Source: Eutypa lata (lineage: Eukaryota > Ascomycota > Sordariomycetes > Xylariales > Diatrypaceae). Taken from it: a stretch of 64,000 nt of DNA. The stretch spans positions 1 to 64,000 of the forward strand of contig JAKULF010000022.1 in NCBI GenBank assembly GCA_022661535.1, read 5' to 3'. A model generated the notes under the pieces. That model made no database searches. It had not been told where the DNA came from and was given only the letters and a program-made list of their open reading frames with translations. Both the position numbers and the translations under genes were made by a program. Positions 1 through 40,057 of this stretch are shown in pieces. Position 1 is the stretch's first letter. Each line of letters starts with the position of its first letter.

Positions 1-22
1 CCTTTTCTGAGCTATAGAATTT

Positions 23-475
23 GTGAAGGATAAAGGAACTAAAGAACCCTTTAACTCTAAACTCGAGATAGCAAAAAAGATAGCAGATTTAGCCTTCTCA
101 CCTCAGTTTAAATTGCTAATTTACTATGGCGGAGATGCAGGTTATCATGTTCACATAGATCGTGTTATTATTGCTCCTCCATTCATTATTAAAAGAAGGA
201 GATAGATTATATTGTAAAGGTTCTATCAAAGGTTGTTCATATAGTTTGTAATGAAATTAATAGCAATAGTTCGGACAAACATGGAGGTTAAAATACTTCT
301 TATCTTACAAATAAACGGTACAATGGTGTTAGAGTTAATAAATTTTCTACGCAAGCAATAGTCCGTGATTTTGTAAGAGCTTTTGATAAACCTTTTAATA
401 ATTATAAGGCTAGCACGCGTACTATAGCACATCGTTAATATCTGAAAGTCTTAAAAATAAAGGTGGTAGTTTTTA
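23..475 (+). pseudogene. decayed unidentified ORF remnant
   Basis: Two open stretches (23-205, and about 311-438 in another frame) keep protein-like composition. They are separated by stops and frame changes. The second part contains the stretch VRDFVRAFDKPFNNYKAS. I do not recognise the family; a plasmid-type polymerase or another mobile ORF is possible but unproven. The piece ends shortly before an atp6 fragment, so it looks like part of a rearranged junction. Confidence 0.3.
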
Positions 476-502
476 TGAGTGGTTTGGTGGTGGGTCAATA
501 TA

Positions 503-541
503 AATAAATTAGTAGGTAATAATTGATCAATAAGTCAAGAA
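503..541 (+). repeat. atp6-derived fragment, copy 1
   Basis: These 39 nt are identical to atp6 positions 50741-50779. They are a displaced piece of atp6 coding sequence with no gene context of its own. Confidence 0.9.
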
Positions 542-710
542 GATTAGATTTTATATTTTAATTAAAATTTGGTATGAATAAAGTAAGGTAAATTAACTAT
601 TAATTATACTATTTTAAGAGTTAATCATACTTATATGCTTTGCCCACGCCTATATTTATTACATTAACCTTTATGGTTAGGGATATGTATTAGTTATTAA
701 CACCTAAATC

Positions 711-806
711 TTTCTTTTTCAATTAAGATGAGGATCCACTTTTTTAACTTTTAGTTTGTTGAATAAGGGAGAAGAATAATAAAATTAAAGCCCTTATATT
801 ATTAAA
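711..806 (+). repeat. dispersed repeat, copy A
   Basis: The block starting with ctttttcaattaagatgag and ending in aaattaaagcccttata recurs at 45944-46018 with small indels. It lies in the spacer before cob. The rest of the spacer 542-1014 is AT-rich and I see no gene in it. Confidence 0.7.
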
Positions 807-853
807 AACAGATACATATTTTATTTAATAATTAATTTAATTCTTGTTTCTTT

Positions 854-891
854 AATAAATTAGTAGATAATAATTGATCAATAAGTCAAGA
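854..891 (+). repeat. atp6-derived fragment, copy 2
   Basis: A second copy of the same atp6 segment, differing by one base (G to A in the middle). Two copies 350 nt apart upstream of cob suggest a recombination hot spot or a tandem duplication after the first insertion. Confidence 0.85.
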
Positions 892-1014
892 CAAGCCTTT
901 TTAACTTTTTTACAGTGCATTATTAATACCTTTCACATTAATTGTATATAATACATATAAGAGCCTTTATTAACTCTAAATTTTACTAACCTAAATTATA
1001 ATAATAATCAAAAC

Positions 1015-4000
1015 ATGAGAATATTAAAAAGTCATCCTTTATTAAGATTAGTTAATTCGTATATTATTGATGCATCAGAACCTAGTAACATTAGCTATTT
1101 ATGAAATTTTGGGTCATTATTAGCTGTTTGTTTAATAATCCAGATAATTACTGGAGTAACATTAGCGATGCACTATAACCCTAGTGTATCAGAAGCATTT
1201 AACTCAGTTGAGCACATCATGAGGGACGTTTCGAATGGTTGGCTTGTTCGTTACTTACATAGTAATACAGCTTCAGCTTTCTTTTTAGTGTACTTACACA
1301 TAGGTAGAGGAATATATTACGGATCTTATAGATATCCAAGAACATTAGTTTGAGCTATAGGTACTGTTATACTTATACTTATGATGGGTACAGCTTTCCT
1401 GGGTTATGTTTATAGCCCGAAATGGTTTAATATAAGTAATAAAGGAAATATAAAGTATAACAAAGTAAATAGTAAAAGATGGTTTAACCAAAGCATGGTA
1501 AAAAGAGGATATTCTACAAATCGTCCTTCAGATAATATTGAAATTTCTGAAAGACTAGAAATAATTCTTCAAGAATTAGGTTTAAACCCGGTATATGTTT
1601 ATGAAAATTTAAATTTAGAAGATACTAGAAAACAAATATTAAACGATACCAGAGGTTTAAGCGGTATATACATGATAGTTAACAAAATAACTAAAGATTA
1701 TTATATAGGTTCTGCGGCAACCAATAGATTTTATGCTAGATTCTGTAACCATGTTATTTATTTCAGAGGTAGTAAAATAGTTAAATTAGCAATTAAAAAA
1801 TATGATTTGAAAAATTTTGCTTTTATTGTATTAGATTTATATCCTAATATTGTTACCAAGGAAAATAACAAAGAATTATTGGATTTAGAAGATAAATATT
1901 TAAAATTGTTAGTGCCTAACTATAATATTTTGACCGAAGCAGGTTATAGTTTTGGCTACAAACACACTGAAATTGATCGTAAAAAGATGAAAGATATTTA
2001 TAGTGATGCTAGACGTGAAATAATAGGTAATATAAACAAAGGTAAAAAGCTTTCTCCTGAAACCATAGAAAAAATGAGAGAAAAGGCTTTAAATAGACCT
2101 CCTATGTTAGATATAACTAAACAAAAGTGTATAGTTAATACAAGACCTGTTGTTTTGTATAACTTGAATGGTACTATTTACGGTGAATATTATACTATTT
2201 TGGATGCAGCTAAATCTATAAACTGTGGAGAAAAAACTATTAGAAGAGCACTAAAAACAGAAAAAGGATTAGTGAAAAGACAATGAATAGTAAAAGATTT
2301 GTCAAATAAATAGTTATCTTATTTCCAATTTTTTGTTATACTTTATTTTTATATTAAATCATAGTCCCGCGAGTAACAATCTTTCTGCAATCTTTATAGA
2401 GAAAAAAAGATTAAAGTGGTATAACCCGACGGGGATATAGAATAGTCTTTAAGATTATTTGGCGATGTTAGTGAAAACGATCAAAGAAGTTTAAACTTTA
2501 AGATCGTCGGTTATATAAATGATCGCGACAGACTGGGTCACTAATGGGTGGCTGAAATGCTGCTTAATGCACAGGCGGAACTTTTGGTTAAATTAATTTA
2601 ATTAATAGAATATACGAATTAAAAGTTATTCTAGCTTATTATCTTTTTAATAAGTAAGTTTGTATGTTTTACCTTATGGTCAAATGTCTTTATGAGGTAA
2701 TAGTTTGCCTCAAATGTATAACTAAAAATTAAAAACTTTATGTTGATTGAAATAATACTATATAAATTGTATCTTAGGGTTTTAAGTTAAAATAATCCAA
2801 GTTATATGATGTAAATTATTTTATACCTAACTCAACTAAAAAATAAGTTCCTCCATAGTTTGTCAATCTTTCCTTAATCCGTCAATCTGTATAAGAAGAT
2901 ATATTGACTAGCATAATCTCATTTCTTCGGAGAGATATATCGCCAATAGGTAGTATCCCTATGTACTCCTAGTTCTTCAAACCCAGCTTTTTTCAGCACC
3001 TTTTGACTTCCAGTGTTTTTCACATGAGCTCTACCCCACAATTGTTCTGTCTTATCCTGGTAATCCATGTCGGGAAGGTTGTCTAATTTAAGATGTGTAG
3101 TCATGCGAGGTAGACTCCACCAAAATGATATGAAGAAGGGCACGAACTCAGAAGCGTACCCTTTACCCCAGTGCTTCTTCTTTAAATAGTAATAGATGGA
3201 TGGCCATCCATTACTATAAATATGCACTCCTACCTCACCGATTAGCTCTCCCTCATTATCGTCTGATTTCTTCAAGAATATTCCTAAGTAGTAATGATTC
3301 GGTCGAAAAGGAGATTCTGGTTGTAGATCTTCGAGGTTTTTTCGAGTTTCACTCTCAGTTTCACTCTTCTTGTCTGGCTTGCCCTCGCCTCCTCTCAAGA
3401 GATGCAGAACTTCGGGATCCTTTCGGAGGGAGTGGTATGCATCGAGGTCCGAAAGAAGAAGTGGTCGAAGGATGAAGTGATAGGTGATAATAGGTTCATG
3501 TAGGTTACCCGCAAGGGGACATGGACGAGTCGTAAGGACCTTATCTTTATAGAAAAGGTCTTTTGTTAATAGCCAATGGAAGAGGTTTTTGTCCAATACA
3601 TTTCGATAGACTTGAAGGTCAAAGCCTGTATTTAACAGTACGTTGTAAGCAATAAAAGTATCGAGTTGGTAAGGAATCCCTGGCCTAGTCCAAGCGTATA
3701 CTAGCTCTTTTGTCTCAGGTATATTCGTACCTTGGAGGTTGGTAGAGTCGGGGCTGGGAACTGCTAGGATATTTACTTTCTCGCGGGGTAGATTCCACCA
3801 AAATTCCATAAAGGTTGTTGTAAACTCAGTTTCGTAGTGTTGGCGCCAGTGTTCTTTTTTGAATATAAACCGAAATTCAGGCCATCCGGTTAGGGTAGAT
3901 GCAAATTTATGTACCCCGCCTTCCCCTATCAACTGGCCCTCGTGTTTGTCTTCCTTCTTAAGGAAGATTCCGAAGTATACGTGCGAACCCTGGTATGGTG

Positions 4001-7000
4001 GTTGTAGACGTTGGAGCTTGTTCTGAGTTTCATTCTTGTTCTGATCGGGCTTGCCTGTGTCTGAAAAAGCCATAGTTTCGGGTTGGCTTCGAAGGGTGTA
4101 GTATGCCTCGAGGTCCGATAGAAAAAGAGGTCGAAGGATAAGACGATCAGAATGAATAGTAGGTAGGTTATTCTCAACCAGAGGAAGCGTGGTCGAGACA
4201 GTAATATGAGTCGGTGTGGTGGTGGTAGCAGCCATTGTGATTGGTTGGATAAGTGCTAAATATGTAAATGCGTATAGAGATTCTGGTGCTGGATTGTAAC
4301 TTTCTAAGTTGATAGAGAACAAGAGAAAAAAAGGGTAAGGAGAAGGTGATTGCTTATCCTTATATACTGTTTTTCTTTGTCAAAGTCACATGTAAATTTT
4401 TATTTGATTTCTAAGCAGGAGCTGGGATATTAGGAGTTCTCCCAGATTCTACTCATCGAAGGTTTACTATGACTTATTGTGGATCCGCATAATTTCAGTG
4501 ATCATCATGTGAAAAGGCCAGATGATCAAAGATAAAACAAAAGATAAGGAGAGAACAGGTATGATTGGATAGTTTACATTGGAGGGCGGGATTTCCGCAG
4601 TCTGACTCATGCTAAGGAGGATGAGGTGTCATGGTGGCGAGCTTGCTTATCCACATTTTCCGAATTAAGATTAGATATTTATGCGATCTGACTCATGGTT
4701 TACTGAAGATGATGTGTAATGGCGACTCAAGGGAATGGAGATTACGCGTCATGTGGCGAGGACGGAAGTTCTGCTTACCCCCTGCAAGATTGATGCCACA
4801 GTTAGGTCTTGATTTCGTATTACTCCTGCGTAGCCTGGGTGTGGCAAAATGCCGAGAAAGATTTTCATTGAGTCAGAAGACTGAAAAAATCTTGCCAGAT
4901 GTAGATCATAGATAAGAAAACCTGTTTTCTTTGGCTCTACAAGCTTACCTCTGTGACAAGCTTACGTCTGCTTTTTATTTCTAAGCAACCCATCGGTCTC
5001 AAAAATAAAACAAGAGATAAGGAGATAATGGATATGATTGGGTAAAAGATTGAGGGATTTATGCAGGTGTAGCACCAAAACTGATCTTTCGTATATGTTT
5101 TGTCAATATGGTATGACTCATGACTAGTGCCAAGGTGGCAACCCTAATGATGTGAATCACCGGAGCATATGTTCCAATGCGACTTTGCTGGGAAAACGGT
5201 AAGCTTTGATTTCTAAGCAAGAGACAAGGATGAAGAAGTAGAAGAGATCTGTTAGTGGTTCAAATATTGAGGGATTTATGCGCGATGACTCATAGATCGA
5301 TCAATAATGATGCGTGATGGGTAGGTTACGCCATGTGATTTGATTACGCTTATCTATTGGCCATAGTCTAGGATAAGAAAATCTTGACAAATGCAGATCT
5401 TGGATTAGAATATGTAATAGGATAAGATAAGAATTTATCATCCCATCCTAATCGTTTAAGTTGAAATTTACCTATCCTCAATTTCTATTTAAGCTAGATC
5501 CTTTCCCTTTACTTGTTTCAAGAGTACCAGACCTATATACAATAAGTTCTCTTTTTACCAAGTCATCTTTTTTACTCATTGTATTTATCATGGATCTTCC
5601 TTATTTTCCAGCACGTACCTATCGTTATGGTTAAATACATACTCAGGATCTTTTTGTCGAGAACTCATCTCAAAGGATGGACGGTCTACCTACTATGACT
5701 TCATCTCAGAATAATGAGATGAAGTCAGAATATGAATCGACTCTCTCTGTTACAGGCTCGAATTCTCGTACAGAGATTCTTCAAGGTCCAGACTCCAACT
5801 TGCACCTTGAAGAGATCCATGATGTATCTGAGTCACCAAAGACTGTGTTTGACGGTCTTCCTTGTGACACCAAGCTTTCGAGTTCTGAGAGAATGGATGA
5901 TCTCCCCGACTATGAATCCTCTCAAACTCTTTATTCTGAACCGTCCGTGATATTAATTTCGGACGATTCTTATTCAAAGACCTTACCAAGAAAGGGTACC
6001 CCTTTTCCTGTTACCACTACCGACATCTCTGATCCAGGATCAGAAAGGACAAAATGCTACACGAAGGGCACAAGCTCTTCTTCGATATTTACGGGTTAGT
6101 TGTTCCAGGGTGTTCTCCTTAATTTAACTAACTTCTTGCTAGCGAAACCTCATCTTCATCATGATGGCTATTCTTGGCGTTATGGACCGACTCATCCTAG
6201 TAAGGAATGGGTTAGAAAGTATTGCAAGCAACATGGTCTAATACCTTCTTCCTTGCCTCGAACGACCTCTTCAAAGGTGGACATTGTAAAAAAACGGCCT
6301 ACTTCGAAAACCCTCCTTCAAAAGTTGAAGGAGGTTGTTAGACAACACTTGGAAGAGGAGGATGACTTTGGTGTGAAAGTTAGTGCAGGGTATTCATCTT
6401 GGAGGGAGTCAAAGATATCGGATCTGACGATGGAAAAGAAAGAAAAAGCTATAGAGTTCAGTCTTGATTTTAAGTTTATTAGTTTTACATAGTTGCATAA
6501 TTGAGTATCCATCTATAGGGTTCTACGAAGAGAGGCAATATTTACTTAAATTCTCCTTTTTCAAAATTATGCAGCAATACTAGTGAAAACGGTCAAATAT
6601 ATTTGTTTAGTATAAAGACCGTCGGTATAGTATAATATCGCTACAGACTGGTCCACTGGTAGGTATCTAAAATGATGCTTAATGTACAGTCGGAGTCTTT
6701 TTTCAACATATCATTAGCTATATTGAGACACAAGGCTTTATACTAAATTAAGATTATTATATTTAAATAAGTATAAAGTACAGGGTTTGCTTGTTTTAAA
6801 CATGAAAAGCTAAATTCCATAGCTAGAATGAGCAAATTAAAGACTTGGCTACAGTTTAACCGCGAAGTAATAGCTGTAGCAAAATACCACTAATTGCTGG
6901 AAACTCTTCTATTCAGATGACAATCAGCAGGGAAATTAACATATTATGTTAAAACCTTCAGAGACTATACGTGGTACATTTAACTTTTTATATAGTAATA

Positions 7001-9385
7001 TTTTTATTATATAGATTAAGAAAATGAAGATATAGTCCAAACCATTAAATAAATTTAATGAAAGGAGAGTCGCGCCTCCTTACTTTTTTAATAACAGTAA
7101 ATGTTTCAGTATATTCGCAAACATAAACCTTATTTAAGGTTAATAAATTGTTTATACTGGGTTGTTACAAACAAAGGTTTAATGTATTACTTTTTTAATA
7201 TCACCAATTTTAGTATATTATTTTCAAATTTATTTAGATTTATACTATTACTTTGTATTTACCTTTTTTAAGTCTAAGGTCAAAGACAATAGAGAAACTA
7301 ATGAGATTAATGTTTTATTAACTGGTGTCCATAAAGAATTACCCGATTCATCTTTAAATACTAATTTTATAGAATGATTCGTAGGCCTTTGTGAAGCAGA
7401 GTCTAATTTTTTAATTAGAACAAGAAAAAACGCAAAAGAGGAAGTTTCGGGTTTTGAGTTTGTATTTAGAATTACTTTACATCAAGAGGATAGAAAAGTT
7501 TTAGAATACATAAAAAACACATTAAGATGTGGTAGATTAAACACTGAGAGAGATGTTTTAATATTTTCAATATCTCAATTAAATGATATTGAGACGGTCT
7601 TAATACCTATATTAGATAAATTTACATTAAACACTACCAAGTACTTGGATTATCTTTATTTTAAAAAAGCATTTTGTATGTTTAGAAATCGTAAATCTAG
7701 TGAATTAACTTTACAAGAAATTAATTTAAATATTATAAAATTAAAAGAAGGTATGAATAGTAAAAGAGTAAACTTTGTTTTACCTGAGGATCATAGTATA
7801 GTAATTACAGGTAATTATCTAGTAGGTTTACTAGAGGGAGATGGATCATTTTACTTAAATAAGCACGATATGACAGCTCGTTTTTCACTTGTTACTACTA
7901 CAGTGAATAGACTAGTTTTAGAAAAAATACGTGAGTTTATTTTAAGTTTATTAGATGAGCATTCTTATATGCTAGGAAGTACAACTAAACTAATTAATAT
8001 TAGTAATAAAAAAATTAAAAGTGGACATAGACCTATCTCTATATTAGAAATCTCTCAAATTGATTTTATTTGCAATGTACTTATTCCTTACTTAGATAGT
8101 ATAGAATTTAAAACTAAAAAATACCAAGATTATCTAGATTTTAAAACAATAGCGTTATTAATCTTAGAAGGTAAGTATTTAACTAATAAAGGTAAAGAAT
8201 TAATAATTAGATTAGGTGACAGTATGAATAATAATAGACTATCTACTAATCCTAACCCTATTATATTAGATGATACTACTAAATCAGAATTAAAAATTTT
8301 AGTAAAATCGGATCCTTTAATAAACATAGATTCTGAAGGTAGAGCTATGATAATATCTGAAAAAAAATATATAAGATCTACCTATATTATAAAAGTTTAC
8401 CTTCTAAATGGTTCTGTTAATTATTTTACAAGTGGAATTTCATGCGCTAAATTTCTACATGTAAGTAATGATTCTATAACAAAAAGATTAAACGATGGTA
8501 AACCAGTAAAAAATAAGGAAGGTTTAATTGTTGCTCAGTGTATAAAAAGAATAAAAGTCTACTCTTCTTTAAAATAATGATACAAATTCTTAACTCAAAT
8601 TTTTCTCAACCACGTCGTAAAACAACCACTTAATTATAATTGGTTATATTAGTATTACTAACCTTATAAGTGCTATTCCATGAATTGGACAAGATATTGT
8701 TGAGTTCATTTGAGGAGGTTTCTCTGTTAATAACGCAACTTTAAATAGATTCTTTGCATTACACTTTGTATTACCATTTGTTTTAGCTGCATTAGCATTA
8801 ATGCACTTAATAGCACTTCATGATACAGCAGGGTCAAGTAACCCTTTAGGTGTATCAGGTAATTATGACAGATTACCTTTTGCTCCTTATTTCTTATTTA
8901 AAGATTTAATAACAATCTTTATGTTTATATTTGTTTTAAGTCTATTTGTGTTCTTTATGCCTAATTACCTGGGTGATTCAGAGAACTACATTATGGCTAA
9001 TCCAATGCAGACACCGCCTGCTATTGTACCTGAATGATACCTTCTTCCATTCTACGCCATATTAAGATCTATTCCTAATAAATTATTAGGGGTTATTGCA
9101 ATGTTTAGTGCAATATTAGCTATAATGTTATTACCTATTACAGATTTAGGTAGATCTAAAGGTTTACAATTTAGACCTTTAAGCAAGATAGCTTTCTTTA
9201 TCTTTGTAGCTAATTTCTTAGTTTTAATGCAATTAGGTGCTAAACATGTAGAATCTCCATTTATAGAATTTGGACAAATAAGTACAGTATTATATTTTGG
9301 ACATTTTGTATTTATAGTTCCTTTTGTAAGTCTAATAGAAAATACTTTAATAGATATTAGTTTTAGTCATAACTATAAAAAATAA
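1015..9385 (+). CDS. cob: cytochrome b, 4 exons, 3 group I introns
   Basis: Apocytochrome b, the quinol-oxidising, heme-carrying membrane subunit of respiratory complex III. Exons by protein continuity: 1015-1410, 2669-2698, 6848-6855 and 8653-9385; together 388 codons plus TAA, the usual fungal length. The start ATG gives [14 protein letters not shown]. Exon 1 holds the first heme-ligand helix region, exon 2 only [10 protein letters not shown], exon 3 only eight bases (Ala-Thr and part of Val), and exon 4 the rest, including the PEWY motif. TGA encodes Trp (for example in LISAIPW). The exon 1/2 boundary could shift by about two bases. Confidence 0.95.
1411..2313 (+). CDS. GIY-YIG homing endonuclease in cob intron 1
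   Basis: The reading frame continues directly from cob exon 1, so the protein is probably made as a fusion and then processed. The GIY-YIG core is visible (GIYMIVN, then YYIGSA with a downstream Arg). A NUMOD3-like segment ([12 protein letters not shown]) follows, then a C-terminal helix-turn-helix of NUMOD1/IENR1 type ([16 protein letters not shown]). Two TGA codons are read as Trp near the end. The group I ribozyme core follows at about 2465-2585, and the intron ends near 2668. It nicks intron-less cob alleles to spread the intron (family knowledge). Confidence 0.88.
2919..4235 (-). CDS. tandem-domain GNAT N-acetyltransferase, nuclear-type
   Basis: An intact 438-aa frame starting at [10 protein letters not shown]. 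Two GNAT (RimJ/RimL, Acetyltransf_3-like) domains lie in tandem. Both open with the family's typical start ([20 protein letters not shown] near residue 30; [17 protein letters not shown] near 255). The second domain keeps an acetyl-CoA-binding loop ([10 protein letters not shown]); in the first the matching loop reads [10 protein letters not shown] and has lost its glycines, so only the C-terminal domain may bind the cofactor. Trp is TGG throughout and the stop is TGA, as in nuclear genes; read with the mitochondrial code it would run 19 codons further, to TAA. An upstream in-frame TTG extends the frame to 4322 but is unlikely to be the start. Substrate unknown. It is probably not translated in mitochondria and is likely of nuclear origin (inference). 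Confidence 0.8.
   Translation of the reverse strand: MAATTTTPTHITVSTTLPLVENNLPTIHSDRLILRPLFLSDLEAYYTLRSQPETMAFSDTGKPDQNKNETQNKLQRLQPPYQGSHVYFGIFLKKEDKHEGQLIGEGGVHKFASTLTGWPEFRFIFKKEHWRQHYETEFTTTFMEFWWNLPREKVNILAVPSPDSTNLQGTNIPETKELVYAWTRPGIPYQLDTFIAYNVLLNTGFDLQVYRNVLDKNLFHWLLTKDLFYKDKVLTTRPCPLAGNLHEPIITYHFILRPLLLSDLDAYHSLRKDPEVLHLLRGGEGKPDKKSETESETRKNLEDLQPESPFRPNHYYLGIFLKKSDDNEGELIGEVGVHIYSNGWPSIYYYLKKKHWGKGYASEFVPFFISFWWSLPRMTTHLKLDNLPDMDYQDKTEQLWGRAHVKNTGSQKVLKKAGFEELGVHRDTTYWRYISPKK
4323..5676. other. nuclear-like spacer with degenerate repeats
   Basis: No convincing gene. The stretch has mixed base composition and recurring short modules: atttctaagca at about 4407, 4976 and 5209, and gactcatg or a close variant at about 4603, 4688, 5115 and 5284. 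This suggests a degenerate tandem-repeat promoter or intergenic region brought along with the GNAT gene. Pyrimidine-rich stretches before 5590 resemble fungal nuclear promoters. Confidence 0.45.
5677..6492 (+). pseudogene. unidentified nuclear-like ORF broken by one TAG
   Basis: Two open stretches (5677-6099 and 6100-6492) are in the same frame and separated by a single TAG. The first 140 residues are Ser/Thr/Asp-rich and low-complexity. The second part contains [20 protein letters not shown] and ends in a basic, helical tail. Codon use matches the neighbouring GNAT gene rather than mitochondrial ORFs. I do not recognise the family. It could be a nuclear gene that has begun to decay, or an exon pair with an unrecognised splice site. 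Confidence 0.4.
7183..8577 (+). CDS. LAGLIDADG endonuclease in cob intron 3
   Basis: Intron 3 spans about 6856-8652, with its group I core (gctggaaactc, aatcagcaggg, gagactatacg, gatatagtccaaa) at 6890-7056. The ORF behind it has two LAGLIDADG motifs ([25 protein letters not shown]) and a C-terminal module like those in the other WFRG-type endonucleases here ([16 protein letters not shown]). No ATG opens the frame. An ATG at 7182 in another frame joins it only across a T-run near 7265, so a one-base error or frameshift is likely at the N-terminus. Confidence 0.75.
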
Positions 9386-9621
9386 TCGGTATGGAGATAG
9401 AATAAAAGATTATGCTGCAGGTATTGCCTTTATTCCAGTAATTACTTTTTATTTTTTGGGTATTACGTAAATAAGCCAGCCCTTGATAGTTTGAATGGAT
9501 TATGATAAATAAATGTTTAAAGAAAAATAATTTAATTAGATTTTTTTATATAAACCTAAAAATTATACTAATATTATAAAATAAGTATAAAAAAAAAATA
9601 AAAGAAACCTAAGTTTCTTTT

Positions 9622-9693
9622 AAGATTATGATGTAGTAGGTCTACACTTTGATTGCAGATCTTAAGTACGAGGTTCGATTCCTCCATAATCTT
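9622..9693 (+). tRNA. trnC: tRNA-Cys (GCA)
   Basis: A 72-nt cloverleaf candidate. Acceptor aagatta/taatctt pairs fully; the T loop ttcgatt is closed by a GAGG/CCTC stem; anticodon GCA lies at 9655-9657, the 34th position. The anticodon stem has weak pairs. It sits alone between cob and cox1. Confidence 0.75.
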
Positions 9694-9892
9694 GTTAAAT
9701 ATTCGTATAATTATCTAGCTTCTTTTTTATAACTATAGATTAATGAAATACATTAATTATATACTTTTTTTTAATAAATTTAAATTTATTATATGAAGAA
9801 TGCTTATGCCTGTGTGTATCGTTCAAGATCAGGAGGATAGGCACATACATAGTGATAATGTGACAAATGAAGGTTTGAAATCTTCTATTAGT

Positions 9893-32426
<22,534 letters not shown>

Positions 32427-32430
32427 TAAT

Positions 32431-33093
32431 AAGCTAGATAATAAAAACACAGTTGAATTATTATCAGCTGCATCCTGTGTTTATACTAATCTCCATATTC
32501 CAAGTACTTTAGTTAAAATCCGTCAGGATCTAAAATCCTTAAGTGGAGTATACGCTTTATGGTATTCGGGTTCTGACTCGGTTTATGTTGGTAGTTCAGT
32601 TAATTTAGCTAGCAGAGCTTTAGATCATATTAAAAATCGCCAATCTAATACTTACTTACAAAACGCTATAGCTAAGCATGGTTTAGATAAATTTTCTTTT
32701 TATATCTTGGAGTTGTTACCTGAAGATTGTTCTTCTTATGATGACTTGTTAGATCTAGAGCAAAAGTATCTTGATTTATTTCCTAGTAAATATAATTTTG
32801 AGAAATTTGCTAGAAAATCTAGAGCAGGTACACTAAGTTCAGATGAATCAAGAAAACAGATGAGTGATCTTAAAAAAGCTAGTTATACTGAGGAACGTAA
32901 ACACCAGATTTCCAAACAATTTAGTAAAGAGTTGTTTTTATATGACGCTAGTACTTTAAATTTAATTAAAAAGTATAGTAGGCAAGGAGAAATGATTGAA
33001 GAGTTACAAGTAAGCTTTAAAACTATTATAAAATACAGGGACTCTGGTAAAGTTTTTAGAGGTAAATATTTAGTCTCTTCTAAATTAATGTAA
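32431..33093 (+). CDS. free-standing GIY-YIG gene behind cox1
   Basis: The frame, +1 to cox1, is already open at the cox1 stop and contains GVYALWYSGSDSVYVGSSVN followed by LASRAL, then Glu in DLEQKYLDLFPSKYNF and a NUMOD-like C-terminus. There is no ATG near the start, and no ribozyme core or downstream cox1 exon follows, so this is not a simple intron. It may be an endonuclease gene inserted at the 3' end of cox1, or the remnant of a lost last intron. Confidence 0.7.
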   Translation, partial: KLDNKNTVELLSAASCVYTNLHIPSTLVKIRQDLKSLSGVYALWYSGSDSVYVGSSVNLASRALDHIKNRQSNTYLQNAIAKHGLDKFSFYILELLPEDCSSYDDLLDLEQKYLDLFPSKYNFEKFARKSRAGTLSSDESRKQMSDLKKASYTEERKHQISKQFSKELFLYDASTLNLIKKYSRQGEMIEELQVSFKTIIKYRDSGKVFRGKYLVSSKLM

Positions 33094-33293
33094 GAAAAAT
33101 GGTATCCATCTTTCTTGTTTAATAATTAGGAGTTTTAGTAATTTTCCTTGCCCTGCAATCAATAAAGTTAGCAAATAGAGCTTGCTTTCAATTATTTCTT
33201 GTTTACAGAAAAGTTCTTTTTTACAAAAGTTGCATGAATTAAAAGTTTTATTTACAGATATTCTTTATAAATCAAAACAATAATTCATGTAAA

Positions 33294-33361
33294 TCTCATT
33301 AGCTTAAAGGTAAAGTAGAATAGTCCTAATATTCTGATTTTAGTTCGAATCTAAAATGAGG
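33294..33361 (+). tRNA. trnR: tRNA-Arg (CCU)
   Basis: Cloverleaf with acceptor tctcatt/aatgagg, T arm with ttcgaat loop, and anticodon stem gaata/tattc closing loop gtcctaa, hence anticodon CCT. It is very similar to trnR(UCU) at 34011 and probably arose from it by duplication and anticodon change. Confidence 0.75.
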
Positions 33362-34010
33362 TAAATTTACGGGTGAATTAATTTACAGGAAGTAGCATTA
33401 TATAACTTAAAAACGGAAAAACACTGTGTACTAATTAAAAAATTAAATTATAAAAGGAGGTCTAATACATTAACTATACATTTTTTTTTTAGTCTACAAG
33501 AGGGGTTTTTAATTTATTTAGTAGCTCGATAAAAACATTCTTCCCTCTTTCAATGTTGGGGGCCTACATTAGAAATTTTGTAGTGCTTTATAGGTGGCTT
33601 TAACTTCAGCCCCTATTAAAAACTTGGCAAATTGCTGGAAGGACTAAAGGTGTAATCCCTTTACGTATAATCAGCAGGCAATCTTTCTTTATAAAAAAGA
33701 AAGCAGCTTCAACGATCAAACGCCAAGTGCCCTCGATTTAAAAATTAAATTTAAATAAGGGTAGTGATATGATCTAAGTGAAATAGTGACTAATAAGCAT
33801 TATTTTATCTTGACTAGATTTACCTGAATCTAAATCATCTAGTTCATATAACTTGAGTCCTAAAATACCTGCTGCAAAAGATCAAATGGATATTCTCCAA
33901 AAAAAGATAGATATTTGTATTGAAAAAATATCTCAAGATCTTGAATCTTCCGAATCTGAAGGTACAAAATCTAAAAATAAAGGTAAACAACCAGAAAGAT
34001 AAAAAAAAAT
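33362..34010. other. spacer with solo group I core and ORF tail
   Basis: At about 33625-33720 the segments caaattgctggaaggac, aatcagcaggcaa and ttcaacgatcaaacg match the P4-P7 strands of the introns here, without flanking exons: a solo intron remnant. At 33783-34001 a 72-codon frame without ATG (LDLPESKSSSSYNLSPKIP) looks like the C-terminal tail of an orphan ORF. Confidence 0.45.
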
Positions 34011-34079
34011 TCTCATTAGCTCAAAGGTAGAGCAGGATACTTCTAATATCCCTATTTTAGTTCGAATCTAAAATGAGAA
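34011..34079 (+). tRNA. trnR: tRNA-Arg (UCU)
   Basis: A clean cloverleaf: acceptor tctcatt/aatgaga, D stem gctc/gagc, anticodon stem ggata/tatcc with loop cttctaa (anticodon TCT) and a T arm with ttcgaat. It lies upstream of nad1. Confidence 0.88.
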
Positions 34080-34190
34080 TTCAAACAATGAGTAATTACT
34101 TAAAATAAATTATAATTACTCTTCATCTATATTTATTATATTCTTTACATTATTTATGGAGAATATTTTATTAGAATAATAAGAAGAAAA

Positions 34191-36419
34191 ATGTTATTTT
34201 TACCTCCAACTCTTATATCAGTTATTGAAGTTCTTTTAGTTATAGTTCCAGCGTTGCTTAGTGTAGCTTATGTTACTGTAGCAGAAAGAAAAACTATGGC
34301 CAGTATGCAAAGAAGATTAGGTCCTAATGCTGTAGGTTATTATGGATTATTACAAGCGTTTGCAGATGCTTTAAAACTTTTATTAAAAGAATATGTAGCA
34401 CCAACGCAAGCTAATATAGTATTGTTCTTTCTAGGTCCTGTTATAACATTAGTTTTTGCACTATTAGGATACGGAGTTATTCCTTATGGACCTGGTTTAG
34501 CTATTAGTGATTTTAATTTAGGTATATTATATATGCTGGCTGTATCATCTTTAGCAACTTATGGGATATTATTAGCTGGATGAAGTGCTAATAGTAAATA
34601 TGCTTTTTTAGGATCTCTTAGAAGTACTGCTCAATTAATTAGTTATGAATTAATACTAAGTTCTGCTTTATTATTAGTTATTATGTTAACAGGTAGTTTA
34701 AATTTAACTGTTAATGTTGAATCACAAAGAGCTGTATGATTTATATTACCATTATTACCTATATTTATAATATTTTTTATAGGATCTATAGCAGAAACTA
34801 ATAGACCTCCTTTTGATTTGGCTGAGGCTACTAATATGATTTGGTCTCATTAAAGATCACAAATTGCTGGGAACTCCACTCTTTTTTTTATAGGATAATC
34901 AGCAGGGAAATTAACATATAATGTTAAAACCTTCAGAGACTAGACGTGATCATTTAATATGAATTTATATTAGATAAGGTATAGTCCAAATTTGTATGAG
35001 AATACAAAATAATAAAAAAAAATGAAATCATATTTAAATATGAACTCTTCCGTCACTACCTTAGGCGTGATATCTAGATTAAAAGTTTGTACGGTAGCTA
35101 GTTATAGATATTATTTTACTTCAAAATCAGATTCACAATCATCTGAGCTACCTCCTGTTCCTATTTTTATTATTGATAATTTAAATCATGAGGATTGTAT
35201 TAAGTCTTCTAGAATATTATTAAAAAAATAAAGGAGGTATTTATTCTTTTATTAATACAGTCAATGGTAATCAATATATCGGGAGTGCGAAAGATTTTTA
35301 TTTAAGACTTAATGAACATCTCGAAAATAAGAAGTCTAATCTTGCTTTACAAAAAGCATTGGCTAAATATGGTTTAGATCAATTTAAATTTTGTAATTAT
35401 GAATATTTCACATATGAAAATAAAATTATAAGTCATAAAGCTTTAACTGACCTAGAGACTAGTTATATTAACAGATTTAATTTTGATAGTCTTTATAATT
35501 TTAAAGCAACAGCTACAAGTTCTTTGGGTTATAAGCATACAGAAGAAGCAATATTAAAGATGGTTGATTATTATAAAGATAAGAATAATCATCCTATGTA
35601 TGGTAAAACTCACACAGAAGAAGCACTAACTTTAATTAGTAAACCAGGTGAGTTAAATCCTATGTTCGGCCTTTGGTTTTCCCTTTGGTCAAAAACCAAA
35701 GGGAAAACTAGAAAACATGGTGAAGCAACTAAAGTGGCTATGAGTGAAAAGAAGAATAAATATGCTTTAGGTGTAGGTCTTGATGATTTAAATGACAACT
35801 TAATTTTAAAGTTTAAGAATAATGTATAGTTAGCTAAACATTTAGATATTTCTAAGGTTACAGTAGGTAAGTATTTAAATTCGGGTCTTGTATATAATAA
35901 AACATACCGGTTTAAACCTATACAAGATTAGTACGGTTTATGGTTTTTTTTTGGAATCAGAATTAGTTAGTGGATTTATGACTGAACACGCTGCAGTTGT
36001 TTTTGTATTTTTTTTTAGCTGAATATGGTAGCATAGTATTAATGTGTATTTTAACTAGTTTATTATTTTTAGGTGGTTATTTAATATTAGATATTATTTA
36101 TTTGCTAAGTTATTTAGATTTTATTATTTGAGAATTCTTTATTATAGACTGAATCCTTGTTTTAGATTATCTTATTGAAGATATAATGAATACACCTGCT
36201 TTAGAAGGATTGGTCTATGGGTTTAGTTTAGGATTAAAAAGTTCTTTAATGATTTTTACTTTTATTTGAGCCAGAGCTTCTTTCCCTAGAATACGTTTTG
36301 ATCAATTAATGTCCTTCTGTTGAACAGTTTTATTACCAATAGTTTTTGCTTTTATATTATTAGTACCTTGTATTTTATATAGTTTTGATATATTCCCTAT
36401 TAATATAAATTTATTTTAA
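34191..36419 (+). CDS. nad1: NADH dehydrogenase subunit 1, one intron, frame break in exon 2
   Basis: Membrane-arm subunit of complex I near the quinone site. Exon 1 34191-34829 ([16 protein letters not shown] to [10 protein letters not shown]), exon 2 35954-36419 ([16 protein letters not shown] to the C-terminus). In exon 2 a run of nine T at 36008-36016 puts the sequence out of frame; the expected [10 protein letters not shown] needs two more T or one fewer. Everything after is intact in the other frame. Given how conserved the protein is, a homopolymer sequencing error is the simplest explanation. Confidence 0.9.
35022..35931 (+). pseudogene. GIY-YIG endonuclease in nad1 intron, broken
   Basis: Intron 34830-35953, with the group I core upstream (aaattgctgggaactcc, gagactagacg, gtatagtccaaa at 34860-34992). 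ATG 35022 opens a frame that stops at an A-run near 35222-35230. The nuclease continues in the next frame ([25 protein letters not shown], Glu in [22 protein letters not shown]). A TAG near 35827 then cuts off the NUMOD1-like tail ([15 protein letters not shown]), which stays open to 35931. It has at least one frameshift and one premature stop. Confidence 0.75.
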
Positions 36420-36552
36420 ATTTTATTTTTATTAATATATAGTATTAAATTAATATGTAATTTGTTTTACATAATATAATCATGTAATTGTTTACTTATG
36501 ATGTAATTTTAGTTTAATTATATGGGAAGTTTTATTTTATTAAAGATAATAA

Positions 36553-38064
36553 ATGTTATTATCATCTTTATTATTTATACCTATTTTAGGGATATTTTTA
36601 ATCTCTAGCAATATGTCTTATGAGGATACAGAACTAAAAATAAGATCTTATAAAATAACAGCTCTTGTAACATCTATTTTAAATTTAGTTATATCTTTAG
36701 TAATATTTCTATTATTTGATTTTAGCAGTAATCAATTTCAGTTTGTTGGTGGGGTTCCGGCCCTACCTTACGGGATTTATCTTGGGGTAGATGCAATTTC
36801 AATCTATTTTGTATTACTTACTACTTTGATTTTCCCTATCGTTATAATATCAAATTGAAATTCGATAATTACAAACGTTAAATCTTATTTAGTAATTGTT
36901 TTACTGCTTGAGAGTTTATTACTAGGGTCTTTTTTAGTCTTAGATGCTTTGTTGTTTTATATTTTTTTCGAGGCAATACTACCACCTTTATTCTTACTAT
37001 TAGGATTATTCGGTTCTAGTAATAAAGTTAGAGCTAGTTTTTATCTATTTTTATATACTTTGTTTGGTTCATTATTCTTACTGCTAGCTATCTTAACCAT
37101 GTCTTCTATAATGGGTGCTACAGATTTCGAGGTGTTATGAAAATCAAATTTTGATTATTATATACAAATTGTTTTATTTTGCGGTATTTTTATAGCAATT
37201 TCTATTAAAACGCCTCTTTATTTTGTTCATACTTGATTACTAAAAGCCCACACTGAGGCACCGTTAGGTGGAAGTATTATCTTAGCAGCTATAGTCCTTA
37301 AGTTGGGATTATACGCAGTTCTAAGATTAATTCTACCTGTACTCCCTGAAGCTTGTGTAGCTTTAACACCATTTGTTTTTGTAATAGGGGTAGTAACTAT
37401 AATATATGCTAGTTTTAGTACAATAAGAACTACAGATATTAAAGAGTTAATTGCCTACTCTTCTGTTTCCCATGCAGCTGTATATTTAATGGGTGCATTT
37501 AGTAACACTATCCAAGGAATAGAAGGAAGTATAATTTTGGGTTTAGCCCATGGATTAGTTAGTCCTGCTTTATTTATTATTGCCGGAGGGGTGCTCTATG
37601 AAAGATCAGGAACTCGTAATATTAGCTATTACCGAGGAATAGCTCAAATGATGCCTCTGTGTTCCATTTTATTTTTTATCCTTTGCTTAGGTAATTGCGG
37701 GGCTCCTTTAACTTTAAATTTTGTAGGTGAGTTCTTATCGTTATATGGAGTATTTGAAAAATTACCATTGCTAGGTGTTTTTGCTGCTTCATCTATAGTA
37801 TTTTCTGCTGCTTACACAATATATTTATTTAACAGAATATCTTTTGGAGGATCATTCAGTTTATTTTTCCAAGAAAATTTCCAAGATCTAACTAAAAGAG
37901 AATTCTTTATATTATTAACTCTAGTATTCTTTACTATATTATTCGGTATTTACCCAAGCTTTATCTTAGATGGTATACATCATGGTGTATCAGGTTTAAT
38001 ATATAGTTTTAGTGAAATCTCTACTACGTTGGACATGTCTTATGTTAATATTCCCCTGAGTTAA
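36553..38064 (+). CDS. nad4: NADH dehydrogenase subunit 4, intact copy
   Basis: Proton-pumping membrane subunit of complex I. An uninterrupted 503-aa frame from ATG 36553 (MLLSSLLFIPILGIFLIS) to TAA, with internal TGA-Trp codons and no intron. Conserved blocks: LLKAHTEAPLGGSIILAA, LIAYSSVSHAAVYLMGAF, ILCLGNCGAPLTLNFVGEF and the C-terminal FGIYPSFILDGIHHG. It is the only full-length copy among four nad4 loci in this window, so it is the likely functional gene. Confidence 0.95.
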
Positions 38065-38066
38065 CA

Positions 38067-38136
38067 TTTAGTTATATCTTTAGTATTATTGGCTTTTAGT
38101 AGTAATCAATTTAAGATTAATCAATTTCAGTAGTAG
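38067..38136 (+). repeat. fragment of nad4 5' region
   Basis: The stretch atttagttatatctttagta... with agtagtaatcaattt repeats nad4 positions about 36687-36745 in diverged form, directly behind the nad4 stop. It is a partial duplication without coding potential. Confidence 0.65.
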
Positions 38137-38234
38137 AAGCGAAGGAGCTAGGACCTGATACAACTAAGATTATTAAGTAATGTATTCACTTTGCCGCTCT
38201 AAAAAATCTTCTGGATGTAGCAAAGTGGGTACAT

Positions 38235-38312
38235 ATATACTTTTTTAAGAGTATAGTTCAGGTAAAATAGGGAGCACACACTCCGAGTTCTCAGTTCAAA
38301 TCTGAGTGTTTT
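38235..38312 (+). tRNA. tRNA-like element, copy 1 (anticodon unclear)
   Basis: The sequence agagtatagttcaggtaaaat, an apparent anticodon arm ggag-cacaca-ctcc and a T arm ctcagttcaaatctgag resemble a tRNA. The anticodon loop lacks the usual T33 and the acceptor is poorly paired. It is nearly identical to 55219-55296. It is best seen as a tRNA-derived repeat. Confidence 0.4.
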
Positions 38313-38357
38313 TTGTAATTCATCCTTTACGAAGGTAAAAAGAAAAGATATCTAAAT

Positions 38358-39815
38358 ATGAATAATTTGCTTATTGTATACGAAACTTACGCAAATGGTT
38401 TATTTGCAAATATTTCCTATTATTTAATAATGTTGGGTTTAAGTTTTATAGGTTTACACTTTACTGCTTCTAATTTAATTTACGGTATTGATGCAGATTC
38501 TAGTAGTGTAATTAGTTTAGGGGTTGCAGGGGTTATGCTCAAATCTGAAGGAGGAAAGTATGAAATTGGAATTTCAGTTAAAGAAGGTGAAGAGACATCT
38601 ATAACCGATCGTACGGGTAATTTCATAGAATGATTTAGAGGGTTCGTTGATGGGGAAGGTTCTTTTATGATAGCAAAGAATAAATCTCTATTTACTTTTT
38701 CATTTGCAATACAGTTACATAAAGATGATAGAGCGGTGCTTCACTATATTCAAGGAAACTTAGGGTTAGGTAAAGTGACAGTTAGCGAAAATTTAGTTAA
38801 GTTTTTAATTGTGAATCAGAAGGAAGTTGCCAAATTAATAGAAATATTTACAGCTAATCCTTTAAACACTACTAAAGTACTTAATTTTTTAGGTTTTAAG
38901 AAGGCTTTTGAGCTTTATACTAGTTCTACATCTAAATCTGAAAGTACAATAAGAGAGATAGAGATAATTAGAAGTGGTCTTAACAATAAGAGATCTTCTT
39001 TTCAAAAGCCTGAGGGACACAAGCTTCACATTACTCCTTCATGACTATTAGGGTTTATTGAGGGAGAAGGTACTTTTTTTGTTCAAAGGAAGAGTTTTCG
39101 TTTAGAGTTCAGTTTAGGGCAAGCTGAAATAGATCTAGATTTAATGGAAGAAATCAAAAACTTCTTTGATTCTTTCCCTGGTGTAGTAAATGGGCGTTAT
39201 AAAGGGAACCTTGTTGTAAATTTATACAACTATCCGGGTAAAAACCTTAAACACAAATCTATGGTTAAGCTTTTTATTGTTAATTATGCATTTATTTGTG
39301 ATCATTTTATTCCCTTATTTAACTCTCTTGTGTGACATAGTAAGAAGGAACTAGATTATTTAGATTGGTTAAGTATTTCCAAGTTAAGAGATATGGGGCT
39401 TCAGTATACAGAAGAAGGTTTAAAGTTAATGCAGTTAATATTAAGCCAGATGAATTCTTATCGGTTATCTACTTCATCATCTCCCCGGGTAGATAGGGAA
39501 GTATTACGGTTAAATGTTGATAAGTTGTTAAATGGTCCTTCTAACTTAGAGGTTAAGAAGGATGGTAGAATTTTTATCAAATCTTTAAATAGACACGCTT
39601 ATAACCCTAAATCTCAAATTGTGCAATTGTGTGAAGCCGGTAGTGGAATAGTACTTCAATCATTCGAATCTACTAGTGCTTGTGCTAGGCTTTTAGGAAT
39701 ACCTCAATCTACGGCTTCCAAAAGGTTAAATAATGAAATACCGTTTTTATTTGAAGATAAAACTGTGTATTTAAAGAGAGAAGAGGTTTTAGTAGATGTT
39801 GCTGAGCTTGATTAA
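38358..39815 (+). CDS. free-standing LAGLIDADG endonuclease, 'WFRG' type
   Basis: A 485-aa frame, intact under the mitochondrial code. A hydrophobic N-terminus (NISYYLIMLGLSFIGLHF) precedes two motifs, EWFRGFVDGEGSF and WLLGFIEGEGTF, and a C-terminal DNA-binding module (CARLLGIPQSTASKRL). There is no group I core or split gene around it; it lies between nad4 and its second copy. It is the best-preserved member of a family also present at 43061-44377, at 59400-60745 and, more distantly, in cob intron 3. Confidence 0.82.
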
Positions 39816-40057
39816 AAGATACTTAAATTAAACGATAGTTATTTTTTTATTTCCAAGTGTATCGCTTGATTCCTGTGTTTTAGATGAGTTATTCTTTCTA
39901 TAGAGTAAGAAGCACTAAGCTTTTTTTGCTTTAATTATTACCTGCAGTTGGTTACAAGATATAACCAAAGAATTTACTTTAATAGTTATTCATCGACTGA
40001 TGTTATTAGTAATAATCATCGGCGTTGGAAAGGGAGAGATGGTGGGTATATTAAAGT
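39816..40057. other. spacer before nad4 copy 2
   Basis: AT-rich, with a short GC-richer patch (catcggcgttggaaagggagagatggtggg near 40018). The missing N-terminal part of nad4 copy 2 is not found here. Confidence 0.5.

Follow-up and report, generated by a model that had tools for sequence, protein, structure and literature searches.

A probable nuclear DNA fragment with two divergent genes in the endonuclease slot of a mitochondrial cob intron of Eutypa lata

How can a mitochondrial gene carry, inside one of its introns, several kilobases of DNA that look as if they belong in the nucleus? The question is raised by cob in the first 64,000 nucleotides (the window; G000:C25:1-64000) of C25, the 186,961-base mitochondrial contig of the Eutypa lata assembly (54.5 Mb, 29 contigs). 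A first, sequence-only reading of this stretch had proposed that nuclear DNA with a complete gene lies within a mitochondrial group I intron. Our analysis leads to a more specific reading, to which we assign a probability of about 0.84, namely that a fungal nuclear fragment of ~3.6 kb, i.e. two divergent genes and the promoter-like spacer between them, occupies the endonuclease slot of a cob-429 group I intron (cob intron 2) that would still be able to splice. The predicted second gene, with its intron of spliceosomal type, is new relative to the first reading.

The block (2851-6480) differs from its surroundings in composition as well as in the genetic code that it appears to use. Its G+C content (GC) is 0.41, as compared to 0.19-0.20 directly to the left, 0.30-0.34 directly to the right and 0.29 for the mitogenome, so that the abrupt compositional change noted earlier is confirmed. 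The coding sequence (CDS) of the first gene, a GNAT acetyltransferase on the reverse strand, has 12 TGG and no TGA codons for tryptophan, and that of the second gene on the forward strand (gene 2) has three TGG and no TGA. The resulting ratio of 15 to 0 contrasts with that of 2 TGG to 13 TGA in six pieces of mitochondrial core-gene exons (Fisher P=1.8e-6); four intron-encoded open reading frames (ORFs) are less extreme (jointly 9 TGG and 18 TGA, one of them without any tryptophan). Both the claim that TGA does not serve for tryptophan here and the claim of a complete reverse-strand gene ending in TGA (the GNAT CDS, running from 4235 to 2919) are thus upheld. The longest open frame in the block comprises 486 codons, and none longer than 227 arose in 300 order-3 simulations.

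The GNAT protein matches the profile PF13302 with E=4.3e-40 (138.1 bits, the curated cut-off being 25.4). Its second domain retains HWGKGYASE, a motif to which we presume a catalytic role, where the first domain has HWRQHYETE, and we infer that only the second domain is catalytic. Four proteins from other sources (P0002-P0005) are 70-79% identical to it, and in a 37-row domain tree, in which 9 of the 34 inner branches are open, both of its domains group with theirs (supports 100/100 and 100/99). These four may be nuclear, their ends fitting a reading in the standard code and the same database reading TGA as tryptophan elsewhere (in P0027, see below). Upstream of the GNAT gene, at the stretch of the TATA-like TATATAAG box, P0002 and P0016 have the residues KKVYKDEQ in common in their upstream frames, which suggests that this stretch is conserved. 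A scan for amino-acid drift over five GNAT sequences found 11 changes unique to the block protein, with two residues of AT-rich codons gained and two lost; it gives no date for the insertion. No relative was found in IMG/VR with the block protein and two GNAT alignments as queries.

The spacer between the two genes contains five TGACTCA/TGAGTCA sites, whereas 500 first-order simulations gave a mean of 0.22 and a maximum of 3, i.e. none reached four, which agrees with the earlier description of the spacer as promoter-like; we take TGACTCA to be a bZIP (Gcn4-type) binding site. A 16-nt spacer repeat, ATTGAGGGATTTATGC, was considered as a dispersed nuclear repeat and rejected, since exact copies occur on C25 only; at up to two mismatches its frequency in the genome is no higher than that of a reversed control. 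Gene 2 acquires a single frame of 255 codons when a 48-nt intron with spliceosomal consensus signals is taken out, and the pattern of these signals occurs four times in the remaining 141,765 bases, both strands combined. Five homologues of gene 2 were found (41-99% identical), one of which, P0035, seems from the alignment to include the translation of an intron at the same position; the predicted residues at the end of gene 2 align with the end of P0035 despite their overlap with the block's right junction. Compared with P0033, a start further upstream (in-frame ATG at 5590) is separated from the rest by a TAA at 5632, and gene 2 may therefore be decaying or may start further downstream.

Searches of the whole assembly with the GNAT gene or its protein yielded, next to the two assembled passes of the block and a mitochondrialised GNAT gene on C25, matches on C7 (61% identity over residues 12-185) and C8 (44% over residues 10-157, plus a second, weaker piece), and a 52-bp relic on C5, an 85% match whose translation resembles the beginning of the two-domain gene. 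Outside GNAT the block had no other match in the assembly, and for gene 2 there was no match to exon 2 and two to exon 1, both with E above 1. The comparison with the nuclear assembly that had been proposed for this locus has thus produced GNAT paralogues and a relic, not a copy of the block or of gene 2. It is the combination of standard-code tryptophan and stop codons, the GC step, the spliceosomal-type intron, the TATA-like box, the TGACTCA-type sites and the GNAT paralogues that argues for a nuclear origin.

The place of the putative insertion can be read from relatives in which the intron is uninterrupted. Two IMG/VR contigs with cob exons, L065 and L066, have the cob-429 intron at the same site, with homologous flanks and core, and lack the block; the interval between these flanks codes for a LAGLIDADG_2 protein that is in frame with exon 2 (PF03161, E 4.7e-56 and 6.1e-55), whereas E. 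lata lacks the endonuclease gene and has the nuclear-like block in its stead. A search of one turn of the mitogenome with the L066 endonuclease matched cob exon 2 alone and found no trace of an endonuclease. In two further contigs (L063 and L064) cob residues 131-145 run uninterrupted across the cob-429 site, intron 2 being absent, and in L066 intron 3 is absent, GCAACAGT being fused to TATTACTAACC, which supports the joins of the micro-exon that separates introns 2 and 3. L062-L066 are filed as viral in IMG/VR, yet look like fungal mitochondrial DNA (mtDNA) because of the cob exons and mitochondrial introns inside them. The suggestions that the block splits cob intron 2 (exon 2 at 2663-2698, intron 2 at 2699-6847), and that relatives would be informative, are both borne out, two relatives having the same intron without the block.

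These relatives also delimit the block. Homology on the left stops at 2757 in both, so that the left border lies within 2758-2918 (an uncertainty of ~160 nt), composition pointing to ~2850-2925. On the right, homology starts at ~6481 in L066, the L065 alignment beginning only at 6535, and a stem of the E. lata intron (6494-6500/6567-6573) has counterparts in both (TGTATGG/CCATACA in L065, TATATGG/CCATATA in L066), from which it follows that the block ends by 6493, most likely at ~6480, and not at 6540. Of the earlier borders (2880..6540), therefore, the size of ~3.6 kb stands and the right end has to be moved. For this border the intron alignment was preferred to a Markov segmentation, in which the best segment was 2925-6433 and the two genes (gene 2 for the most part) as well as a portion of the spacer were scored as nuclear. 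The 14-nt word at the right junction that is shared with L066 was equalled in length in one of 500 simulated pairs; the overlap of the last gene 2 codons with this junction fits a joining by microhomology, without proving it. A target-site duplication was rejected, direct words common to the border zones being at most 7 nt long.

The intron core lies in the right part of intron 2. Helix P1 pairs TGAGGT (2693-2698) with GCCTCA (2707-2712) and was also seen in a fold of the joined flanks. Compared with five other introns of the mitogenome, the 24 pairs of P3, P5, P6 and P7 are paired in 95.1% of 144 cells; none of 500 shuffles reached the real pairing or covariation score, six matched or exceeded the eight pairs that are changed on both sides, and 90 equalled or exceeded the number of further pair types. 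Slid versions of the core pair in 23-57% of cells, a comparison that is biased toward the unslid structure because this was derived from the same sequence. In 1-12000 the Rfam group I model (RF00028), which may cover this subtype poorly, found nothing, even with an E limit of 1; the intron is therefore established through its relatives and covariation. An intact and covarying core predicts continued splicing, by which the block would be removed together with intron 2. The features are collected in Table 1.

Table 1. Features of the cob region and the inserted block (window positions)
Feature	Position	Strand	Remarks
cob exon 1	1015..1404	+	read from sequence; ORF 1015-2313 opens with cob protein; boundary from frame and cob-393 site
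cob intron 1	1405-2662	+	GIY-YIG-like ORF inside; read from sequence
cob exon 2	2663..2698	+	YVLPYGQMSLWG; exact word, single occurrence at 2663; aligned to L065 and L066
cob intron 2 (cob-429 group I intron including block)	2699..6847	+	exon joins match uninterrupted relatives
Inserted block, likely nuclear origin	2851..6480	.	borders uncertain: left 2758-2918, right at or before 6493
Two-domain GNAT acetyltransferase CDS	2919..4235	-	438 aa, TGA stop; PF13302; same-length relative P0001
Promoter-like intergenic spacer	4239..5589	.	1.35 kb; degenerate repeats; TGACTCA/TGAGTCA sites at 4603, 4689, 4869, 5114, 5286
TATA-like box	4359..4366	-	TATATAAG; 131 nt upstream of GNAT ATG
Gene 2 exon 1	5677..6094	+	transcribed divergently from GNAT
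Gene 2 predicted spliceosomal intron	6095..6142	+	48 nt; GTTAGT...TTAACTAAC...CTAG
Gene 2 exon 2	6143..6492	+	final codons overlap right junction
14-nt word shared with L066 intron	6481..6494	+	AGTTTTACATAGTT; right junction or microhomology
Intron stem	6494-6500/6567-6573	+	TGCATAA/TTATGCA; own reading of sequences
Group I core	P3 6579-6585/6654-6660, P5 6589-6594/6617-6622, P6 6623-6628/6635-6640, P7 6646-6650/6687-6691	+	
cob micro-exon	6848..6855	+	GCTACAGT, 8 nt; GCAACAGT directly joined to TATTACTAACC in L066
cob intron 3 (cob-437)	6856..8652	+	LAGLIDADG-type open frame ~7183-8577, no ATG before 7645

Exon 3 of cob starts after intron 3. Elsewhere in the window there are two nad4-like genes (36553-38064 and 40061-43043), the second of which is broken by an endonuclease-containing stretch and, in two parts of 103 and 316 residues, encodes protein 75-81% identical to that of the first. 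There is also a 372-aa ORF (25698-26816) that has neither TGA for tryptophan nor any Pfam match (E limit 0.1).

The contig itself is most simply read as one turn of a circular mitogenome of ~145.4 kb plus an untrimmed self-overlap. Its first 9 kb are repeated ~145.42 kb further on with 99.93% identity, and of the 41.5-kb overlap the parts 9774-19573 and 32072-41686 were compared, the former being 99.94% identical and the latter agreeing for 98.9-99.7% in the later pass, which nevertheless misses ~130 bases near 40,100. The region 2401-7199, with the block and both junctions, was assembled in both passes with a single 1-nt difference, although the two passes may derive from the same reads. Together with the two uninterrupted LAGLIDADG_2 introns and the intact core, this double assembly supports the presence of nuclear DNA in the intron slot.

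Several observations weigh against this reading. The DNA and protein searches of the whole 54.5-Mb assembly gave no nuclear copy of the block, and hence no donor. Furthermore, the GC of the block is below that of three nuclear stretches with which it was compared (0.48-0.51), the 1 kb upstream of the GNAT gene on C7 having a value close to it (0.40), and the Markov segmentation scores 4260-4537 and 5358-5643 below 0.5. Finally, insertion and splicing have been derived from the assembled sequence.

An assembly chimera of nuclear and mitochondrial reads is a further reading, but we consider such an artefact very improbable, since block and junctions recur in both passes, the assembly contains no other copy, the endonuclease slot with its intact flanks suits a real insertion, and near-identical proteins occur in other data sets (P0001 for GNAT, P0031 for gene 2), which does not by itself show where they are encoded. 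Plasmid-type insertions do occur in fungal mtDNA (PMC3562157), but that the block would be a mitochondrial plasmid or another autonomous element is hardly credible: the list of its ORFs and a Pfam search of the three main frames contain no polymerase, inverted repeats of at least 8 nt between the border zones were looked for and are absent, and its genes follow the standard code, one of them with a spliceosomal-type intron. The nuclear DNA might alternatively stem from another fungus, by transfer between species, as gene 2 and the spacer are unmatched in the organism's own nuclear contigs and the closest GNAT relatives (P0002-P0005) come from other sources. We regard this as unlikely, though not negligibly so, because the C5 relic suggests that the lineage once had a nuclear copy of its own.

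A more serious competitor, to which we give somewhat less than even odds, shares the nuclear origin and differs in how old the block is and how it has been maintained. It holds that the block is an old, shared cargo, which entered the cob-429 intron in a common ancestor with Annulohypoxylon stygium or moves between species with the intron, and which is kept, perhaps by selection. In A. stygium, according to the published description (PMC6140425), each of the six mtDNAs has a pair of N-acetyl-transferase genes, of which one lies in cob-i3, at codon 143. This is the codon of the cob-429 site in E. lata; both introns hold an acetyltransferase, and both adjoin a LAGLIDADG (IB-type) intron. The described cob-i3 measures 4,153-4,155 or 6,251-6,259 bp, is of type ID;IB and has 'double L1' as its sole listed conserved domain (PMC6140425); introns 2 and 3 of E. 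lata with their micro-exon come to a similar total length (5,954 bp), likewise without LAGLIDADG_2. As far as a comparison by description goes, the common site, the listed domains and the lengths of the introns suggest a cargo of the same kind in A. stygium, and the GNAT frame in E. lata is still intact. On the other hand, in the consulted part of that description neither a second gene nor a spliceosomal intron is mentioned, and nothing is said on nuclear code use or orientation (PMC6140425). Moreover, tryptophan codons, stop codon and protein composition in E. lata lack mitochondrial drift, which speaks for a young event unless mutation has been slow.

Against this background the finding is, by comparison with the literature consulted, a structurally explicit variant of an already published kind, the acetyltransferase in a cob intron. 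The sequence-only reading had called such transfers rarely described. This holds in so far as transfer with a recognisable gene structure is seldom visible, and among open-licence papers, judged by their listings, no report was recognised of a fungal mtDNA that contains nuclear DNA with spliceosomal introns; it does not hold for N-acetyltransferase genes as such, which are in print for Xylariales mtDNA, including the one at cob codon 143 (PMC6140425). Among ~500 fungal mtDNAs the authors of that work found just three further transferase genes, and vertical descent was the explanation that they preferred. A review that cites Wai et al. 2019 states that phylogeny suggests a nuclear origin of mtDNA N-acetyltransferase genes (PMC11277600). 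Accessory acetyltransferase genes like the present one are nat1 of Dematophora necatrix mtDNA (PMC11404375) and those in the review (PMC11277600); unlike here, the consulted portions of these two papers describe no block with nuclear gene structure.

The E. lata mitogenome contains further members of the same families. A mitochondrialised GNAT ORF at C25:67965-69470 (L015:3965-5470; P0027) encodes 501 aa with nine TGA and one TGG and has a GC of 0.28. Like the block GNAT, it and its relatives P0028 and P0029 from other data sets have a PF13302 domain (E=4.6e-17 for P0027) and belong to the same broad subfamily, but P0027 differs in its TGA tryptophan codons and a long hydrophobic N-terminal part. 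The three form a clade of their own (100/100) that is not nested in the block GNAT clade and whose link to domain 2 is weak (82/79), the simplest reading of which, short of proof, would be that GNAT genes entered this mtDNA lineage twice. P0014, a GNAT with a long hydrophobic, mitochondrial-looking N-terminal part, stands apart from both mitochondrial clades and is perhaps a further import. There are also three copies of a class-III aminotransferase, one nuclear-like and two with internal TGA. The former, at C25:133776-135218 (L035:876-2318), is a complete ORF with four TGG and no TGA, a GC of 0.43 and a PF00202 match of E=1.1e-74, and has 50% identity to portions of nuclear paralogues (C6 and C11). 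Of the copies with TGA codons, one (C25:144367-145665) runs across the contig turn into window positions 2-196 and is continuous with the end of nad5 in a single open frame, and the other (C25:124829-127202), which also has an internal TAG, lies between motifs of atp9 (122541) and cox2 (131458). In the description of A. stygium an aminotransferase gene with two short introns is located between the same two genes, and an aminotransferase fragment is reported in addition (PMC6140425). That a single mtDNA holds young as well as old stages of each family hints at recurrent import.

If the block is indeed a nuclear fragment in the endonuclease slot, the following course of events can be envisaged. 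Nuclear DNA would have entered the mitochondrion and would have been end-joined into a peripheral loop of the intron, at the right end perhaps via a short microhomology, the endonuclease gene being lost before or during the insertion. With the ribozyme core untouched, the block would be spliced out of the pre-mRNA with the intron, leaving cob functional, and it would then be kept as a passive cargo. Good expression in the mitochondrion is not to be expected for either of its genes: GNAT is oriented opposite to the mitochondrial genes that were recognised, and its terminal codon means tryptophan to mitochondria of this kind, while gene 2 would require a spliceosome.

Gene traffic is known mainly in the direction from mitochondrion to nucleus, and the reverse is seldom visible with gene structure, promoter-like spacer and spliceosomal-type intron still recognisable; in the present case the acceptor site can moreover be reconstructed from uninterrupted relatives. 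The finding suggests why such DNA survives, namely because intron loops with room for an endonuclease gene of a kilobase offer it a safe place to land, and it points to a nuclear source of the puzzling 'transferase genes' in Xylariales mitogenomes. Going further, one may speculate, at odds that we rate as low, that the cob-429 intron, once the carrier of a selfish endonuclease, now serves to transport nuclear genes, a nuclear pair having taken the place of the endonuclease, and that this cargo, common to several Xylariales, spreads between mitochondria by co-conversion when the cob-437 endonuclease, 8 nt away, cuts cob. If true, the recurrent movement of GNAT and class-III aminotransferase genes from nucleus to mitochondrion would make reverse gene transfer directly observable.

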